7,314 bases of DNA from an uncultured Fidelibacterota bacterium (GTDB lineage: Bacteria; Fidelibacterota; Marinisomatia; SCGC-AAA003-L08; D37C17), in assembly GCA_913049525.1 (NCBI GenBank), contig CAJWYZ010000074.1:1-7314 (forward strand), given 5' to 3'. Positions 719 through 7,042 of the stretch are shown piece after piece. Numbering within the stretch: position 1 is the stretch's first letter; each line of letters begins with the position of its first letter. The notes under the pieces were generated by a model, which had not been told where the DNA came from, made no database searches, and worked only from the letters and a program-made list of their open reading frames with translations. The translations under genes and the position numbers were made by a program.

Positions 719-1147
719 TTAATTATTTTCCAAAATTCTACCGGCGACTTTTGCTCCTAAATGAGAACCGTAAAATAATATCCCCACTGAAAGGGAGTGT
801 AGTAGAAAGTAGATATTTTTTTTCATTCCGTCAAATCGAATATCCACATCATATTTTATTCGAACTCCAAATAATATAGATAGAAATATAGTGGCTGATA
901 GTTGGATTAGTCCATGATGAAAATGAAAAATATCAGAGATTGAGCCTATTTCAAAAAAGGCGATCATGCCACTAATTATTGCAAAGAAACTGGATATAAG
1001 ACCCACAAACATGGTATAAAACCCTGCCGTTTCCAACTCATCTTTTTCCAAAACATATGACGAAATATCAAACAGCAATCCGGTTGAAAAAAGTGCAATT
1101 GGGAAATGTATAAGTAATGGATGAATTTCAGTGATAGACCAGGGCAT
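719..1147 (-). CDS. DUF2231 family integral membrane protein (142 aa)
   Basis: The N-terminus HPLLIHFPIALF (residues 9-20) is the hallmark of the DUF2231 family of small four-helix membrane proteins. Predicted helices are at about 9-30, 42-63, 77-97 and 112-130. Histidines H9, H14, H75, H77, H78, H117 and H129 lie in or next to helices, so b-heme binding is conceivable, but that is inference. I chose the ATG at 1147 because AGGG (plus-strand 1154-1157) sits six bases upstream and the family motif starts nine residues in. A longer reading from 1243 would overlap the preceding cytochrome gene by 86 bases and add a non-family extension. The gene starts 10 bases after that cytochrome's stop. Family members are of unknown biochemical role but often lie beside cytochromes. 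Here it is the likely inner-membrane member of the operon, possibly touching the quinone pool. Confidence 0.85.
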   Translation of the reverse strand: MPWSITEIHPLLIHFPIALFSTGLLFDISSYVLEKDELETAGFYTMFVGLISSFFAIISGMIAFFEIGSISDIFHFHHGLIQLSATIFLSILFGVRIKYDVDIRFDGMKKNIYFLLHSLSVGILFYGSHLGAKVAGRILENN

Positions 1148-1157
1148 AGGTTTCCCT

Positions 1158-1526
1158 TTATTTTTTAGGTTTAATAGTTTGAGGATATTTTGACCCGCGG
1201 TGGCATGTCCAACAGGAAATTTGAAGAATATCGTCATGGACATTCAGAGAATCTCCCAGCAATGGGAAAAAATTCTTATTTAAATCCATCTGCATGCGCA
1301 TCATTTTCCGTGCAATTTTCTTATGATCAGTATCAATTGATGTATCATTCAAATCATGGCAGAATTTACACTTAACCCCCAGGTCTTTAGATATTGATTT
1401 CATATATTTCTTCAAATCTCGCTCAGATTCAAAATCTAATACCTGCAGATTTTTCGGTTTGTCCTGCATGAAACCAAGTGATGATACAGTAAATAGCATT
1501 GTTAATACATGGATCAGTTTTTTCAT
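1158..1526 (-). CDS. Periplasmic diheme c-type cytochrome, reaction-centre cytochrome subunit-like (122 aa)
   Basis: An N-terminal hydrophobic signal (residues 1-20, no lipobox Cys) directs it to the periplasm. Two c-heme sites are present: CKFCH at 53-57 and CWTCHRG at 105-111. The arrangement NLQVL near residue 26, a helix with M42 eleven residues before the first CxxCH, a second helix rich in Met (MMRMQM, 75-80), then CxTCHRG matches small proteins of the photosynthetic reaction-centre cytochrome c subunit family (PF02276). That family is widespread in non-phototrophs, so the name does not imply photosynthesis. M42 is the best candidate axial ligand of heme 1. The gene begins 11 bases after the porin stop and ends 10 bases before the DUF2231 start. 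There is no clear Shine-Dalgarno, so coupling to the porin gene is likely. Its probable role is soluble electron transfer between the membrane protein and the heme-porin. Confidence 0.88.
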   Translation of the reverse strand: MKKLIHVLTMLFTVSSLGFMQDKPKNLQVLDFESERDLKKYMKSISKDLGVKCKFCHDLNDTSIDTDHKKIARKMMRMQMDLNKNFFPLLGDSLNVHDDILQISCWTCHRGSKYPQTIKPKK

Positions 1527-1537
1527 TTTATTGTTTA

Positions 1538-2647
1538 CTAAAACCAGAAATGAGTTTGGATGAGATATTCGGGATCGGGCGTTACAGCATTTTCCAAATC
1601 AATTTGATTCATTCGTAGCTGAAGTTTAATTTCCATAATATTCAGCGGATAGATCTCTGCACCAAATGTATAGCGGGATATTGAACCGGTCTGCCAGTCT
1701 GTTTTCGGGTCAAAATAATCATATTTACCCATTAGGTGAATCCCCTGAATTATTTCCCAGACGATTTCATCATACAGCGCCAGGGAGGTATTCCCCTCAA
1801 TCCAGTTTTCTGCCTGGTCTGCTTCAAATGTGTAGGTGAAATCACCAAATGACAACCCCCCAGATATCCCCAACATGCTGAAATTATTTTCCTGCATATA
1901 GCTGAAACCTCCCATATAGCTAATATTATCATTAATATTACCTGTATAATTGAACTGGGTAGTTAGATTATTTAATTCTTCGTTGCTTTTGACTATACCT
2001 GTACCAATACTGCTGGTCCATTGCAAACCCCCGAACATGGGTACGCCCAACTCCAGGATTGAAGGAGGATTGAGATAAGGACCAAAGATTAATCCTTCCT
2101 TATCTAAATCTAATAATGTTCTGCTGAAATTTCCGCCACGTATGAATGAAGTATGGTCATCCACCCGGAGTCCGTAATTGGGGAGCGTACGCCCAATCCT
2201 CAACCAGGCATTTTGGGGCAGATTGCTCAGTAGTGCCCAGTATTCGGTACTTAATGAACTGCTTCCCCTCACACCAATCTTGGTAAAAATTCCTGCATTG
2301 TTGTTTAATTTAAGGTAAGAATAAATATCTGCCTGCATGGGGAAAAAAGCAGATTTTCGGGTTGAATCTGTTTCGTTATATTGGACGCCCTGAAGGCGAA
2401 AGTCACCACCAATTTGCAGATGATCACTGATATAGCCATCCCAGTCTTCATTGCCTTTATCCAACCAGCGCTCTAGGGGTAATTCTTCCAGAGCCACTAC
2501 ATTGGTTCCATAATCATTCCGCAGACCACTGCCGGTGGGGTTTACATGGCAGGCAATACAGGAAGCCCCATTTTGTATAGCAAAACGGGGAAGGGCAAAA
2601 CTGAGGTTGAGGATGAAAAGGAGACTAAAAAAATTCCAAATTTGCAT
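1538..2647 (-). CDS. Predicted outer-membrane beta-barrel with N-terminal c-type heme site (369 aa)
   Basis: Residues 1-18 form a signal peptide with likely cleavage after SFA. The mature N-terminus carries one heme motif, SCIACH (29-34), followed by NPTGSGLRNDYG, a short segment resembling N-termini of several uncharacterised cytochrome-porin proteins. From about residue 75 to the end the protein is a run of amphipathic strands with aromatic girdles and Asn/Gly turns. It closes with THFWF, and a terminal Phe is the usual outer-membrane barrel signal. About 12-16 strands would fit the length. One heme in the barrel N-terminus suggests a heme held in or near the periplasmic mouth of the pore. 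The ATG overlaps the preceding lipoprotein stop by one base (TAATG), so the two are translationally coupled. It differs from MtrB-type conduits, whose hemes reside in a separate multiheme partner. Electron transfer across the outer membrane is inferred; a simple porin is the alternative. Confidence 0.82.
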   Translation of the reverse strand: MQIWNFFSLLFILNLSFALPRFAIQNGASCIACHVNPTGSGLRNDYGTNVVALEELPLERWLDKGNEDWDGYISDHLQIGGDFRLQGVQYNETDSTRKSAFFPMQADIYSYLKLNNNAGIFTKIGVRGSSSLSTEYWALLSNLPQNAWLRIGRTLPNYGLRVDDHTSFIRGGNFSRTLLDLDKEGLIFGPYLNPPSILELGVPMFGGLQWTSSIGTGIVKSNEELNNLTTQFNYTGNINDNISYMGGFSYMQENNFSMLGISGGLSFGDFTYTFEADQAENWIEGNTSLALYDEIVWEIIQGIHLMGKYDYFDPKTDWQTGSISRYTFGAEIYPLNIMEIKLQLRMNQIDLENAVTPDPEYLIQTHFWF

Positions 2648-3126
2648 TAATTGTCCAGCGCTCCTTCATCTATCCAGGTTGCGATTAAATTGATTTGATC
2701 TGATGTTAATTGCCCACTGGGGGGCATTGATCCAGAATTAACTTTTTGCCAGAGTAAACTATTGGCGTGATCTCCAGAAACAATTACTGGCCCATTAGTG
2801 CTATTCCCTGACATGATATTTGTATAATTAGATAGACTCAAATTATTACGTGTACTAGTGATATGACAAGGGGTGCAGTTTGCGTCAAAAATGGGTTGAA
2901 TTTCAGTAGAATAGTGAACACAACTTGAGCTATCCCCGCAACAATCATCACTATTTAATCCGGAACCATCACACTCTCCACAGACATCTATTGTAGCAGT
3001 TCCCCCACATTCACCGGCACAATCCAATCCTTCAGTACAATCATTACTTAATGGATCACCAGCATCTGAACAACTCCAGAATACTAGAAATATGAAACTG
3101 AGAATGAATGAAAAAAGAATTTTCAC
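2647..3126 (-). CDS. Monoheme cytochrome c lipoprotein, planctomycete-type cytochrome domain (159 aa)
   Basis: The start is GTG. No ATG is available, because an in-frame stop lies seven codons upstream. Residues 1-18 are a hydrophobic signal ending in FWSC, so C19 would be lipidated. Residues 30-69 form a Cys-rich linker (C30, C36, C40, C49, C52, C62, C63, C69) with DCAGECGG and CGECDG patterns, like the Cys-rich repeats of many Marinimicrobia-type secreted proteins. The cytochrome domain follows: IQPIFDANCTPCH with heme site at 84-88, a variable middle, then VSGDHANSLLWQKV, SGSMPP with M134 as probable axial ligand, and a C-terminal helix ending DEGALDN. This order matches the planctomycete-type cytochrome c family (PF07635). 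It is the first gene of the heme operon. It probably sits on the outer membrane; which face is unknown. Confidence 0.88.
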   Translation of the reverse strand: MKILFSFILSFIFLVFWSCSDAGDPLSNDCTEGLDCAGECGGTATIDVCGECDGSGLNSDDCCGDSSSCVHYSTEIQPIFDANCTPCHITSTRNNLSLSNYTNIMSGNSTNGPVIVSGDHANSLLWQKVNSGSMPPSGQLTSDQINLIATWIDEGALDN

Positions 3127-3133
3127 AGGGGAT

Positions 3134-3163
3134 ATTTTAATGAGTTACACTTTAGGAAAGCAA
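3134..3163 (-). promoter_or_regulatory. Candidate promoter of the heme operon
   Basis: On the minus strand TTGCTT (plus 3158-3163) stands 18 bases before TAAAAT (plus 3134-3139). Transcription would begin at about 3127-3126, on or beside the GTG start at 3126. No Shine-Dalgarno is present before that GTG, so a leaderless message is consistent with the sequence. The call rests on hexamer resemblance in AT-rich DNA. Confidence 0.35.
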
Positions 3164-3187
3164 GTATGAACTACAATCTTATAGTAA

Positions 3188-3216
3188 TTGAAACTAATAC
3201 GTGAATATTACATATT
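3188..3216 (+). promoter_or_regulatory. Candidate promoter of the heme-sensor cyclase
   Basis: TTGAAA (3188-3193) stands 17 bases before CATATT (3211-3216), which matches TATAAT at four of six positions. It lies about 43 bases before the cyclase ATG. It shares the 132-base divergent region with the heme operon promoter. No strong Shine-Dalgarno precedes the ATG at 3259. Confidence 0.25.
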
Positions 3217-3258
3217 TTAAGATGTGCAGGTATCTTGCAACCCACTTAAATTACCATA

Positions 3259-5460
3259 ATGGATACCACTAATGCGGATATGGAAAAACAAAAGGGTTCA
3301 ATAATTCAACAATTACGCCGAACTCCCCTGGAAATTAAAATATTAATCCTGATTGTTATCTGCCTTACCCTAGGATTTGGTACTTACGTCATTTATTCCC
3401 TCAATTCAGAGTCTAAAGCGCTCATGCATCAGCATCGGTTGCGCTCACATCTTTTTGGAGAAACCCTAATCTCAGGCATCCGTAATATTATGCTGTCTGG
3501 CAGGGCGCCTTATGTCCGTGCCTTTGTTGAAGAAGCCCGGGAAGAATTTGACAAAGTAGGTGAATTCCATCTCTTTAATAATAAAGCCGAAGAAATATTT
3601 CCTGCCAAAGACCCTCATATTTCTATCCCCATAAAAAACCCGAAATTAAAAGAACGATTAGAGCATAACCGGTTTTCGGATAATCTATACCCAATAAAAA
3701 ATGAAGCCTCCTGCAAGGCCTGCCATGCAGATGAGATAGAAAATAGGGGTGCTGTACAGTTAGACTTCACCCACAATGCCGATTGGGAAAAAGCCCTCAT
3801 TCAGGTTGTGCAGGGTGCCTTTCAAGCAATCATGCTCTCCGGGAAGGGTGAATATGCCGATACCCTACTCCTGGATATTAACCAATTAATGGGTGTAAAT
3901 CTTGTTCAGGTCTATGATGAAGATGGTATTTATGTGGCTTTTGGCGATGACAATGTTGAGGTAGATGAAGATACTTTAGAAGATGTTGCAGAGACTTTTC
4001 ATGATAAACTTGAATTAGGCAGCACAGTTAAAAAAAACAACTATCATTTTGCACCCTTTCTTAATATGGAATCCTGTCATGTCTGTCATGGTCCCGATTC
4101 AAAATTGCGGGGTATTCTGGCAATGAAGATGCAGACTGATAATGTGCAGAGGGAGCATGTAATAAATTCCGTTATCATCGGATTTAAAAATCTCATGCGC
4201 CTGCAGCGGGCTTCCTATGCCGGGGCCTACATTGATGAAATCCGCAATCTGTCTTTTGTACAGAATTTCCAGGTATTTGATAATGGACATGTATCTGATT
4301 CCGGGTTTCATGAATTATGGGTTCCCAATCCGGATTATTCCAGTATTACTTCAGATACTTCGGCGGCTAACCTGATTGCACAGAATAATCTCAGGTCTCC
4401 TGAGGAAGATCAGTTGGAATACATTGAACAAATCGCGGATATAGATCATCTCACCCAGATGGTACCTATTATTAATGATGAAAAGTGTCAGGCTTGCCAT
4501 GAGCCGCCTGAGAAAGATACTCCCCTCTATGAATCACAGAAAGATAAATGGAAAGTGCGTTCGGTTGTGAAAGTGTCTACTTCAATGAAAGATATTCAGG
4601 AAGAAATTCAGAAAAATACCCAGGCTTCCGTCATTGTAGGGTTGGTGACAATAATATTGGTAACCCTGCTGTTGCGACTATTTATGAGAGCCACGGTTCT
4701 CAAACCCTTAGATGTTATCGGTGGGGTTGCAGATAAAATTGGTGAGGGGGACCTTTCAGTCCATGCCCAAGTAAAATCTCAGGATGAGATAGGGGTTCTC
4801 GCCCAGCGGATTAACAAAATGATTAAGGGATTGCAGGAACGGTTGCACCTCACCAAGTTTGTATCGGATGAAGCGTTAACGGCCGTAAAAAAGGTGGGAT
4901 TAGAAGGCCTGAAGATGGGGGGTGAACGGAAGGTAGCCACTATAATGGAAACCGATATCCGTGGGTTTACATCCATGTCTGAAAAGATGGAGCCGGAAGA
5001 AGTTGTGAGTCTTCTCAATACTTATCTGGATAAACAAACCGAAATGATACAAAGCTATGGAGGCGACATTGATAAATTTATAGGTGATGCGGTACTTGCA
5101 GTTTTTACAGGTGAAGAGATGGCTGATAATGCAGTGCAGTGCGCCATTAAAATTCAAAAAGAAATCAATACATTAAATCAATCATTGGGGAAAAATACCA
5201 TGATAGGTATTGGGATTGACACTGGTCCCCTAGTTATGGGCGCTATGGGCAGCAAAGACCGCATGGATTTTACAGTGATTGGAGATCATGTGAATACAAG
5301 TTCCCGCCTATGTGATGCAGCGCTCCCTGGGGAGGTTATCATCAGTGAAAATACTGAGAAATTATTAAAAGAGGAAAATTATCAATTAAAACAATTAGAC
5401 CCGATTCAGGTGAAGGGCAAGGAAAAGCCCATAAAGATTTACAAAATAATTAATGATTAG
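3259..5460 (+). CDS. Membrane class III adenylate/guanylate cyclase with triple c-type heme periplasmic sensor and HAMP (733 aa)
   Basis: It is predicted to make a cyclic nucleotide, probably cAMP, in response to a periplasmic signal. Order: cytosolic tail 1-26; first membrane helix about 27-47; periplasmic region 48-455 with heme sites C152-H156, C273-H277 and C410-H414; second membrane helix about 456-476; HAMP 477-530 (P483, DEIG at 509-512); helical linker; cyclase domain about 557-730. Catalytic residues appear intact: metal ligands D566 (TDIRGFT) and D610 (DKFIGD), base-recognising K606 and T672 (the Lys/Thr pair of class IIIb adenylate cyclases), and transition-state residues N679 and R683. 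The periplasmic part consists of three related modules, listed separately. Methyl-accepting sensors with c-type heme in PAS-like periplasmic domains are known in Geobacter (GSU0582, GSU0935); here the output is a cyclase. The gene is divergent from the heme operon. M8 is an alternative start; neither start has a clear Shine-Dalgarno. Confidence 0.92.
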   Translation: MDTTNADMEKQKGSIIQQLRRTPLEIKILILIVICLTLGFGTYVIYSLNSESKALMHQHRLRSHLFGETLISGIRNIMLSGRAPYVRAFVEEAREEFDKVGEFHLFNNKAEEIFPAKDPHISIPIKNPKLKERLEHNRFSDNLYPIKNEASCKACHADEIENRGAVQLDFTHNADWEKALIQVVQGAFQAIMLSGKGEYADTLLLDINQLMGVNLVQVYDEDGIYVAFGDDNVEVDEDTLEDVAETFHDKLELGSTVKKNNYHFAPFLNMESCHVCHGPDSKLRGILAMKMQTDNVQREHVINSVIIGFKNLMRLQRASYAGAYIDEIRNLSFVQNFQVFDNGHVSDSGFHELWVPNPDYSSITSDTSAANLIAQNNLRSPEEDQLEYIEQIADIDHLTQMVPIINDEKCQACHEPPEKDTPLYESQKDKWKVRSVVKVSTSMKDIQEEIQKNTQASVIVGLVTIILVTLLLRLFMRATVLKPLDVIGGVADKIGEGDLSVHAQVKSQDEIGVLAQRINKMIKGLQERLHLTKFVSDEALTAVKKVGLEGLKMGGERKVATIMETDIRGFTSMSEKMEPEEVVSLLNTYLDKQTEMIQSYGGDIDKFIGDAVLAVFTGEEMADNAVQCAIKIQKEINTLNQSLGKNTMIGIGIDTGPLVMGAMGSKDRMDFTVIGDHVNTSSRLCDAALPGEVIISENTEKLLKEENYQLKQLDPIQVKGKEKPIKIYKIIND
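3442..4587 (+). repeat. Three tandem heme-sensor modules within the cyclase gene
   Basis: At protein level the periplasmic region repeats three times, at about residues 62-175, 178-296 and 299-443 (bases 3442-3783, 3790-4146, 4153-4587). Each copy has a leading helix (IRNIMLSG, FQAIMLSG, FKNLMRLQ) with a Tyr four residues on. Next comes a PAS-like strand pair (FHLFNN, VQVYDED, FQVFDNG), then P-[IF]-x-N-x(3)-C-x-x-C-H, then a strand (RGAVQLDF, RGILAMKM, VRSVVKVS) leading into the next helix. In the third copy that helix becomes the second membrane span. The copies are diverged and not visible as DNA repeats, so the duplication is old. Confidence 0.85.
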
Positions 5461-5469
5461 AATATGGTT

Positions 5470-6333
5470 TTATTTTAATGCCTCACCCCGACTTCCATAA
5501 GCCACAGCCAAGACTATAAGTCCACCACCCATATACCCCAAAAATCCAAGAACTTCTCCAGCAAATACAATGGCAAAAAAGGCTGCAAATACCGGCTCCA
5601 GAGCAAAGATGATAGCAATTTGACTGGGGTTTAGAATTTGTTGTGCCCAAATCATAATGAGTATGGAGATAAATGTAGCAGCAATTCCCGTTACCAATAA
5701 GGCAGAGATCAGGCGGGTAGACCAAATAGCAAATGTGGGTTCAAATATGAGACTATTGAAAAAGGATAGGCCTGAAACAGCCCATGCCTGGACTAAGAAA
5801 AAGGGTAGAATCCGCACCTCCTTTTTAACATAGTAGCCCTGAAAAATAATATGAACTGCAAAACCCAGTGCACATCCAAAAGTGAGAATGTCACCCCAAT
5901 TCATCCTACCTCCTCTGGGGTCAAGTAAAATATAGAGACCAATTGTAGCCAATGCTACTGCAGTCCATATTCTTATTTTGACCTGCTGAATATTAAATAG
6001 ATATAAAATAATAGGTACCATTAGTACACTCACGCTGGTGATAAATGCCGATTTGCTGGCTGAGGTTTGCATGAGTCCAAAATTTTGAAAGGCATATCCA
6101 CAAAAGAGAAAGAATCCGCAGACCAAGCCCCCCACAACCTCTGTTTTTGTCAGAGTGAAAATGGATTTATTAACAACTATCAGGGTAAGAACGCCAGCAA
6201 TAGTGAAACGGAGTGCACCAAAAGCAAATGGGCCAGCATCATTCAGGGCATCCTTCACCATTATAAAGGTTATCCCCCAAATTAATGTTACTAAAACCAA
6301 TGCAACCTGAGCCATTCTTTTTTTATTATTCAT
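5470..6333 (-). CDS. EamA-family (DMT superfamily) transporter (287 aa)
   Basis: An integral inner-membrane protein of ten predicted helices built from two EamA repeats (about 9-137 and 146-279). Typical marks are TLIWGITFIMVKDAL at the first helix, the charged R42 in LRF near helix 2, and ALEPVFAAFFAIVFAGEVLG (residues 244-263) in the second repeat. The 287-residue length fits the family. Members export or import small metabolites such as amino acids or drugs; the substrate cannot be read from sequence. The ATG overlaps the end of the ubiE gene by eight bases. AGGA (plus 6341-6344) lies seven bases upstream, so the two are probably cotranscribed and coupled. Its stop is nine bases from the stop of the convergent cyclase gene, and no terminator hairpin is evident between them. 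Confidence 0.92.
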   Translation of the reverse strand: MNNKKRMAQVALVLVTLIWGITFIMVKDALNDAGPFAFGALRFTIAGVLTLIVVNKSIFTLTKTEVVGGLVCGFFLFCGYAFQNFGLMQTSASKSAFITSVSVLMVPIILYLFNIQQVKIRIWTAVALATIGLYILLDPRGGRMNWGDILTFGCALGFAVHIIFQGYYVKKEVRILPFFLVQAWAVSGLSFFNSLIFEPTFAIWSTRLISALLVTGIAATFISILIMIWAQQILNPSQIAIIFALEPVFAAFFAIVFAGEVLGFLGYMGGGLIVLAVAYGSRGEALK

Positions 6334-7042
6334 CTTTATATCCTAAAAAGATTGTAGAGACCCCAAAGGTGAGGTCATGTAATTCTGCTCGCTGAAACCC
6401 TGAGTAAATAATTTTCCGACATATATCGTGACGGGAGGGAAAAAAATCTACAGATTCAGGAAGATATCTATATGCATCAGATCGTGAAAAAAAGCTGGCG
6501 ATTCGAGGAAGAATATGATGAAAATATATTTTAAAAATAAAGCCAATAATTTTTGAGGTTGGTTTTGAAAATTCTAGAATTCCTAATTTCCCACCGGGTT
6601 TAAGAACGCGGTAAAATTCTTCTAATGCTTTCTCATAATTTGAAATATTACGAAATCCATAAGAAATGGTGAGACAATCAATGGAATTAGATTCAAAGGG
6701 TAAATTTTCAGCATCACCCTCAATAAATGAAATGTTATCCATCTTTTTCTGAAGAGATTTTTTTTGAGCAAGTTCAACCATCTTTGGTGATAAATCAATT
6801 CCGGTAACAGAAACAGAATGTCTCTTAAGAATTTCAAATCCTACATCTCCCGTACCACAAGCAACATCTAAAATTGAAATGTCATTTTTAATATTTAATT
6901 TTTGGATGAACTTTTTACGCCAATAAATGTCCATTCCAAAACTGAGGAAATGATTTAAAAAATCATAGCTGGGAGAGATGTCGTCAAACATCTTTCGGAC
7001 AAATTCTTTTTTTACATTACCAGTATGACTAAATTCCGGCAT
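6326..7042 (-). CDS. ubiE: Demethylmenaquinone / ubiquinone C-methyltransferase UbiE (MenG) (238 aa)
   Basis: This SAM-dependent enzyme performs the final C-methylation of demethylmenaquinone (MenG role) and, in organisms making ubiquinone, of its benzoquinol precursor. Family signatures are all present: FDDISPSYDFLN (19-30), the SAM-binding LDVACGTGD (58-66), GIDLSPKM (81-88), GDAENLPF (109-116), YGFRNI (128-133), RVLKPGG (145-151) and YRYLPESVDFFP (191-202), with GVSTIFLGYK near the end. The length is close to the family norm of 230-250. I chose the ATG at 7042 because AGGAGG lies just upstream; a GTG at 7072 would add ten charged residues and has no ribosome binding site. A likely menaquinone gene starts divergently at 7135, favouring the menaquinone role. 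The downstream EamA gene overlaps it by eight bases. Confidence 0.96.
   Translation of the reverse strand: MPEFSHTGNVKKEFVRKMFDDISPSYDFLNHFLSFGMDIYWRKKFIQKLNIKNDISILDVACGTGDVGFEILKRHSVSVTGIDLSPKMVELAQKKSLQKKMDNISFIEGDAENLPFESNSIDCLTISYGFRNISNYEKALEEFYRVLKPGGKLGILEFSKPTSKIIGFIFKIYFHHILPRIASFFSRSDAYRYLPESVDFFPSRHDICRKIIYSGFQRAELHDLTFGVSTIFLGYKDE

Follow-up and report, generated by a model that had tools for sequence, protein, structure and literature searches.

An uncultured Fidelibacterota bacterium (Marinimicrobia group) encodes a 733-residue membrane protein in which three predicted c-type heme modules, homologous to one another by sequence profile, lie in tandem ahead of a HAMP domain and a class III cyclase domain. 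We propose that the protein is an adenylate cyclase controlled by three predicted periplasmic c-type hemes through their redox state, a reading to which we assign a probability of about 0.5. The triple array, which is apparently old, is a new architecture within a recently defined sensor family for which this class of output is already listed. Also new are the linkage of the sensor to a cytochrome and outer-membrane-barrel cluster in three families, and an exchange of the cyclase domain between two alleles. Such a protein would join covalent-heme extracytoplasmic sensing to cAMP, and it raises the question of whether a series of like redox switches could yield a graded output. The protein further gives an entry point to signalling in an uncultivated phylum described as abundant in oxygen-deficient waters (PMC10359470).

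The triple-module sensor and its cyclase

The window, meaning the whole stretch of DNA analysed, comprises 7,314 nt of contig CAJWYZ010000074.1, read on the forward strand. Open reading frame 3259-5460 specifies, in order, a first membrane helix (TM1), three CxxCH modules, a second membrane helix (TM2), HAMP and a class III cyclase domain:

3259..5460, plus strand: 733-aa predicted triple-module heme sensor/class III cyclase (ORF and Pfam)
3319..3405, plus strand: TM1, residues 21-49 (hydrophobic stretch; modelled within a single helix, 24-79, that enters module 1)
3427..3768, plus strand: module 1, about residues 57-170 (PF21563 match at 70-168, HHalign, model)
3490..3492, plus strand: Met78, predicted distal heme ligand, aligned with GSU0935 Met60 (alignments)
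3712..3726, plus strand: CKACH, residues 152-156, predicted attachment of heme 1 (sequence and family conservation)
3781..4131, plus strand: module 2, about residues 175-291 (HHalign to modules 1 and 3, model)
3832..3834, plus strand: Met192, predicted module 2 counterpart of GSU0935 Met60 (joint module alignment)
4075..4089, plus strand: CHVCH, residues 273-277, predicted attachment of heme 2 (sequence and family conservation)
4141..4587, plus strand: module 3, about residues 295-443 (PF11845 match at 378-433, HHalign, model)
4195..4197, plus strand: Met313, predicted module 3 counterpart of GSU0935 Met60 (joint module alignment)
4486..4500, plus strand: CQACH, residues 410-414, predicted attachment of heme 3 (sequence and family conservation)
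4615..4707, plus strand: TM2, residues 453-483 (hydrophobic stretch; helix 444-495 in the model)
4681..4839, plus strand: HAMP, residues 475-527 (PF00672, 44.1 bits)
4936..5448, plus strand: class III cyclase domain, residues 560-730 (PF00211, Guanylate_cyc, 93.3 bits; alignment to CyaB)

By curated profile cut-offs, the protein belongs to the sCache_heme family (PF11845; PF21563). Specifically, it scores 61.9 bits against PF21563 (Mcp40H-20_sensor; cut-off 27) and 34.2 bits against PF11845 (Tll0287-like; cut-off 24.1), the latter with its best stretch in module 3 only. Among 23 aligned family proteins, PF21563 is found at E<=0.001 in all 23 and PF11845 in 21. Pfam alone shows the module copies poorly, because only one of the three PF21563 stretches seen at E<=1 passes by itself at E<=0.001. 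HHalign, run on profiles from 42 full-length family proteins that include the window protein, gives probabilities of 99.48 for modules 1 and 2, 99.67 for 1 and 3, and 99.45 for 2 and 3, with the register kept from the first helix to CxxCH. Nine control comparisons, in which a module was set against one of three slices from the cyclase or TM2-HAMP region (two of them overlapping), reach only 0.03-0.34, which rules out chance likeness. The profiles indicate that the three modules are homologous to one another, as an earlier note made from the DNA letters had proposed in describing three copies of one c-heme-type module at 3442-4587. That span corresponds to residues 62-443 and fits the array, the motif P-[IF]-x-N-x(3)-CxxCH given in the note recurs in all three modules, and the hydrophobic stretches and Pfam matches bear out its placement of the modules between two membrane helices followed by HAMP and a cyclase.

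A full-length AlphaFold2 model built with 23 family proteins (mean pLDDT 79.4; pTM 0.48, at which the placement of parts relative to each other is unreliable) repeats one order of elements three times: helix, helix, two to three strands, helix, one to two strands, short CxxCH helix, long strand. Both in sequence and in predicted element order, the CxxCH helix precedes the last strand of each module; module 3 carries a 13-residue insert after its CxxCH. Three unrelated folds, one of the outcomes that the earlier note had named as fatal to its idea, emerge neither from the sequence profiles nor from this order. In the model, TM1 continues into the opening helix of module 1 as a single helix (24-79). 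Modules 1 and 2 end in strands (162-170 and 283-291) that lead, across linkers of 5 and 6 residues, to the first helix of the next module, starting at 176 and 298; module 3 likewise ends in a strand (433-442), and the TM2 helix (444-495) comes next. Helices 24-79, 176-193 and 298-313 are predicted to stop at the Met or one residue beyond it.

Sequence likeness to solved structures is weak. Searched against the PDB, module 1 matches GSU0935 (3b42) at E 0.014, module 2 matches no heme sensor, neither 3b42 nor 3b47, and module 3 reaches 3b42 at E 0.3 and 3b47 at E 1.5, ranked under unrelated sigma-factor rows. Structural comparison of the full-length model with the PDB returns cyclases or cyclase-bearing proteins in all of the best 50 rows of each list. 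A low-confidence sensor-only model (five sequences, pLDDT 56.4) has no PDB match at E<=0.001; 3b42_B ranks 7 (E 0.052) and 3b47 ranks 28 (E 0.13), amid roadblock-type chains.

The predicted heme sites are invariant in the family. The roughly 400 residues between the hydrophobic stretches hold exactly six Cys, all of them inside the three CxxCH. All 42 full-length family proteins, the window protein included, possess the three CxxCH and a Met in each module; thus, the tandem array is no accident of one genome. In the larger set of 54 proteins, whose 12 partial members are left out of the 42-protein counts, CxxCH 1, 2 and 3 are intact in the 50, 52 and 54 proteins that cover them, the motif Asn is kept in the same way (50/50, 52/52, 54/54), and Met is present at 78 in 47/47, at 192 in 50/50 and at 313 in 53/53. 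Chance occurrence of the CxxCH motifs is ruled out by the Pfam profiles, this conservation and the module-module HHalign results. Purifying selection acts on each of the three modules (dN/dS 0.04-0.20 in nine comparisons). Pairwise alignment with GSU0935 puts M78 on Met60 once C152 is set on Cys140 (numbering of PMC8396549), and when 42 modules from 14 proteins are aligned jointly, GSU0935 and all 42 modules have Met at the position of Met60. Each module is therefore predicted to carry the equivalent of GSU0935 Met60. By its sequence, the window protein lacks the axial Cys of the stand-alone redox type represented by Tll0287: no module Cys lies outside CxxCH, and Met stands where the Tll0287 type has Cys. 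One extra Cys occurs in 4 of the 42 family proteins, at or beside residue 435-436.

The family to which these modules belong was named sCache_heme in a 2026 preprint (PMC12889525), which moves it from PAS to Cache and thereby dates the term "PAS-like" in the earlier note. CxxCH is conserved in 99% and 99.4% of its members in two data sets, and histidine kinase, GGDEF/EAL and Guanylate_cyc are listed as partner domains, so that chemotaxis, cited in the note as the known output, is one among others (PMC12889525). The window protein resembles this family in placing CxxCH on a short helix that precedes the final strand and in being extracytoplasmic, flanked by membrane helices and linked to HAMP. 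It departs from the family in its three tandem modules; the main text of PMC12889525 uses neither the word "tandem" nor the word "double". With GSU0582 and GSU0935 (3B47, 3B42) it shares the position of CxxCH, the Met60 equivalent and HAMP after TM2, while those proteins have one module and a methyl-accepting chemotaxis output. The single-domain precedent drawn from them in the note needs amending, as the text of PMC8396549 describes two heme motifs in 2 of 12 Geobacter signal transducers that carry such motifs. Open-licence full-text literature yielded no multi-module heme-Cache cyclase and no characterised triple-heme cyclase, in accord with the note, which knew of none.

The cyclase domain, which the earlier note had called apparently active, retains the class III catalytic set. 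Specifically, D566 and D610 are what we take to be the metal Asp residues, K606 and D670 presumably select adenine, and N679 and R683 presumably serve the transition state. The set is kept in 41 of the 42 full-length family proteins. In alignment, K606 and D670 agree with CyaB and not with the guanylyl cyclase Cya2; thus, by class III residue rules, the domain is a predicted adenylate cyclase. At residue 564, two positions ahead of the metal Asp, 12 of the 42 have Glu, the window protein among them, and the other 30 have Phe. Unlike the class III adenylate cyclases CyaB and CyaC, this protein has a triple heme-type array as its input. Heme input also controls a class III cyclase in soluble guanylate cyclase, where the likeness is by analogy: the H-NOX domain of that enzyme is an unrelated, cytoplasmic heme domain with non-covalent heme, whereas the window protein is predicted to be adenylyl, with a predicted periplasmic input.

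The neighbouring cytochrome and barrel cluster

Upstream of the sensor gene, on the opposite strand, lie genes for three further CxxCH proteins and for a DUF2231 membrane protein:

2647..3126, minus strand: monoheme c-type cytochrome (PSCyt1), probable lipoprotein, divergent neighbour of the sensor (Pfam)
1538..2647, minus strand: 369-aa protein with N-terminal CxxCH and C-terminal F, probable outer-membrane barrel (homologues)
1158..1526, minus strand: diheme c-type cytochrome (NF033196, PufC-related; profile match)
719..1243, minus strand: DUF2231 membrane protein, start uncertain, overlapping the diheme cytochrome gene (Pfam)

The 369-aa barrel-like protein matches nothing in Pfam or NCBIfam. 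Among its homologues longer than 330 aa (109 of 120 listed), 105 carry a CxxCH in their first 70 residues, and the C-terminal residue is F, W or Y in 108. The barrel may resemble fused porin-cytochromes such as Cyc2, and the family may be an outer-membrane electron conduit.

A homologue of the lipoprotein occurs within the sensor cluster at 6 of 6 sensor loci read (BLAST against the seven window proteins, E 7e-7 or better). At the four loci from the genus it directly adjoins the sensor. Four of the six clusters include the barrel; in the remaining two, the contigs of G158 and G156 stop at the lipoprotein. G062 and G070, from two other families, have all four genes on one strand, running lipoprotein, barrel, diheme cytochrome, sensor; the genus instead has divergent lipoprotein and sensor genes. 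In G062 and G070, the lipoprotein homologue, upstream of barrel and diheme cytochrome, lacks a strict CxxCH, and the barrel and diheme proteins retain theirs. Because the linkage survives a change of orientation, gene order argues for a functional tie between the sensor and the cytochrome and barrel cluster. The cluster can nonetheless exist without the sensor, since the barrel is found at E<=1e-10 in 64 of 245 genomes of the phylum, 59 of which lack this sensor (58 with no match, and G181 with a different protein). No palindrome was seen by eye in the intergenic region, where conserved columns lie mostly toward the lipoprotein gene.

The genome from which the window comes (G000; 1.49 Mb, 91.7% complete) harbors six class III cyclase matches, counting the 733-aa protein, one CRP-like regulator of 228 aa with a cNMP_binding match, and one match above cut-off to PF01578 (cytochrome c assembly). 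PF21563 is found in it at E<=0.001 in the 733-aa protein only. CRP-type sites show no excess (34 weak matches, 30 expected), and none falls in 3127-3258. Five profiles that each find matches in 6 to 11 of 14 control genomes find none here, at 91.7% completeness: Cu nitrite reductase (TIGR02376; 7/14 controls), heme-copper oxidase/NO reductase (PF00115; 8/14), bd oxidase (PF01654; 10/14), molybdopterin oxidoreductase (PF00384; 11/14) and NosZ (TIGR04246; 6/14). The window alone sets three CxxCH proteins beside the sensor, in a genome with no oxidase or molybdopterin oxidoreductase matches.

Candidate signals read by the array

Heme loading, ligation and switching, the direction of the response and its target are what we infer from these data and from precedent. 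The earlier note saw in the triple array a possible graded or cooperative reading of redox state or of ligands such as NO or CO. Met binds the reduced heme in GSU0582 and GSU0935; oxidation frees it, and CO and NO displace it (PMC8396549). If that behavior carries over to the three sites here, the His of each CxxCH would ligate its heme, with M78, M192 or M313 as second ligand in the reduced state. The Met would come off upon oxidation or when NO or CO binds. Because Met78 ends the predicted TM1 helix, the final strands of modules 1 and 2 lead into the next module and the final strand of module 3 leads into TM2, release in any module would be expected to shift the relation of TM1 to TM2 and, via HAMP, the cyclase dimer. 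The resulting cAMP would act on the one CRP-like regulator of the genome, for which the adjacent cytochrome and barrel cluster is a plausible target.

For redox switching we count the conserved CxxCH and Met, the lack of a spare Cys, the helix ends, the purifying selection and the catalytic set, together with the lipoprotein linkage at all six loci, the PF01578 match and the presence of one cNMP_binding protein. Against it we count that the sole HAMP-linked sCache_heme protein studied was read as an NO sensor (PMC12889525), that five other cyclase matches could feed the same CRP-like protein, that E564 stands two residues ahead of the metal Asp, and that CRP sites show no excess. The barrel genomes without a sensor, the CxxCH missing from the lipoproteins of G062 and G070, and the poor sensor-only model (pLDDT 56.4) also count against it.

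Redox switching via the three Met ligands is favored over NO sensing, with which it shares its heme chemistry. Were NO the signal, it would bind one or more hemes, displace Met and alter cAMP, redox state merely poising the system; we regard this as the main rival, albeit a somewhat unlikely one. Two of the three named near relatives, Arabian9 and NIOZ-UU, carry names that point to oxygen-poor waters. The HAMP-linked sCache_heme of P. azotoformans binds NO tightly, forms no stable oxy complex and has the properties of an NO sensor (PMC12889525), and GSU0582 and GSU0935 lose Met on binding NO (PMC8396549). The same preprint describes redox-like properties for a stand-alone member with a Cys ligand (PMC12889525). 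Set against NO are the 91.7% complete genome, which matches no NO source or sink of its own (Cu nitrite reductase, PF00115, NosZ), and the gene neighborhood, which holds cytochromes and a barrel but no NO enzymes.

The same neighbors could suggest that periplasmic cytochromes load the three hemes singly and that the cyclase reads the load. The linkage of the sensor to the CxxCH-barrel cluster and the short modelled linkers between modules would suit such an electron relay, but inter-heme distances are unreliable in either model and nothing points to contact with the diheme cytochrome, and we consider it improbable. Tandem extracellular repeats can serve as stalks, and one module might sense while the other two act as structural spacers or heme-bearing stalks. 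We deem this very improbable given CxxCH and the ligand Met in every module of all 42 proteins and a similar constraint across modules, both in dN/dS and in mean majority fraction (0.644, 0.607 and 0.620 for modules 1, 2 and 3). Redox switching through the Met ligands could also take an elaborate form, which we think unlikely though less so than a relay: three hemes, each with its own Met switch and potential, would make a periplasmic redox ladder wired to an outer-membrane cytochrome conduit, cAMP stepping with electron load. If so, a membrane cyclase would read how backed-up extracellular electron flow is.

Spread, age and exchange of the cyclase domain

The same domain order exists in other genomes, as the earlier note's proposed search, made here in 245 genomes of the phylum, reveals. 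The sensor part is matched at E<=0.001 in 7 of the 245, and the triple sensor is therefore sporadic within the phylum. Full triple proteins occur in five of the seven: the source genome, three of the same genus, and G062, of another family. The match in G070 is a one-module chimaera, and that in G181 is weak, to a different protein with two CxxCH. A pattern scan of genome contigs (80 stretches) returned three loci, all near relatives with 82-96% identity. Source names among the relatives are Candidatus Marinimicrobia or Neomarinimicrobiota (P0014, P0036) and Bacteroidetes (P0043). The 54-protein set leaves out P0042, a likely chimaera annotated DUF4175 (Mesonia mobilis), which shows 81% identity over one third of the sensor query.

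In a module tree of 14 of the 42 full-length proteins plus GSU0935, modules 1 and 2 of 13 proteins each form one group by position (support 95/90 and 100/100), and module 3 of those 13 forms two supported groups, of 3 and 10 proteins, from an unresolved fork. Position labels change 4 times on the tree, versus a shuffled mean of 20.1. From this grouping by position, the triplication likely predates the divergence of the 13 proteins. P0054 breaks the pattern, its three modules clustering on long branches; these, like that of GSU0935, are of unsure placement, and the clustering may reflect an independent triplication or an artefact.

The cyclase domain has a history of its own:

4900..5460, plus strand: stretch exchanged relative to the otherwise near-identical G158 gene, edges to about 150 bases (DNA identity, trees)

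Measured per 150 bases, DNA identity to the G158 locus (L020, 665-2860) is 91-99% over 3100-4899, falls to 58-71% over 4900-5499, and returns to 91-99% over 5500-6999 (EamA, ubiE). In the sensor tree, P0001 pairs with P0002 (support 1.0), while in the cyclase tree it groups with P0005 and P0008 (support 0.985). The cyclase domain has been exchanged between two alleles, which differ at residue 564. A paralogous cyclase of the same genome is unsupported as donor, the best of the five having only 34% identity.

Finally, some of the matched proteins differ in module number or output. In G070 (L017, about 1430-2826; L024, 9307-10521), the front half of module 1 leads directly into the CxxCH-bearing half of module 3, with TM1 encoded in a different frame, which reflects either internal loss with a frameshift or an assembly error. 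The G181 protein (L018, 491-2365), read by eye, has two N-terminal CxxCH followed by HAMP, PAS and a histidine kinase. The family profile also matches P0064, P0067, P0068 (which carries the name Oceanispirochaeta) and P0070, HAMP histidine kinases with a single CxxCH at residue 161.
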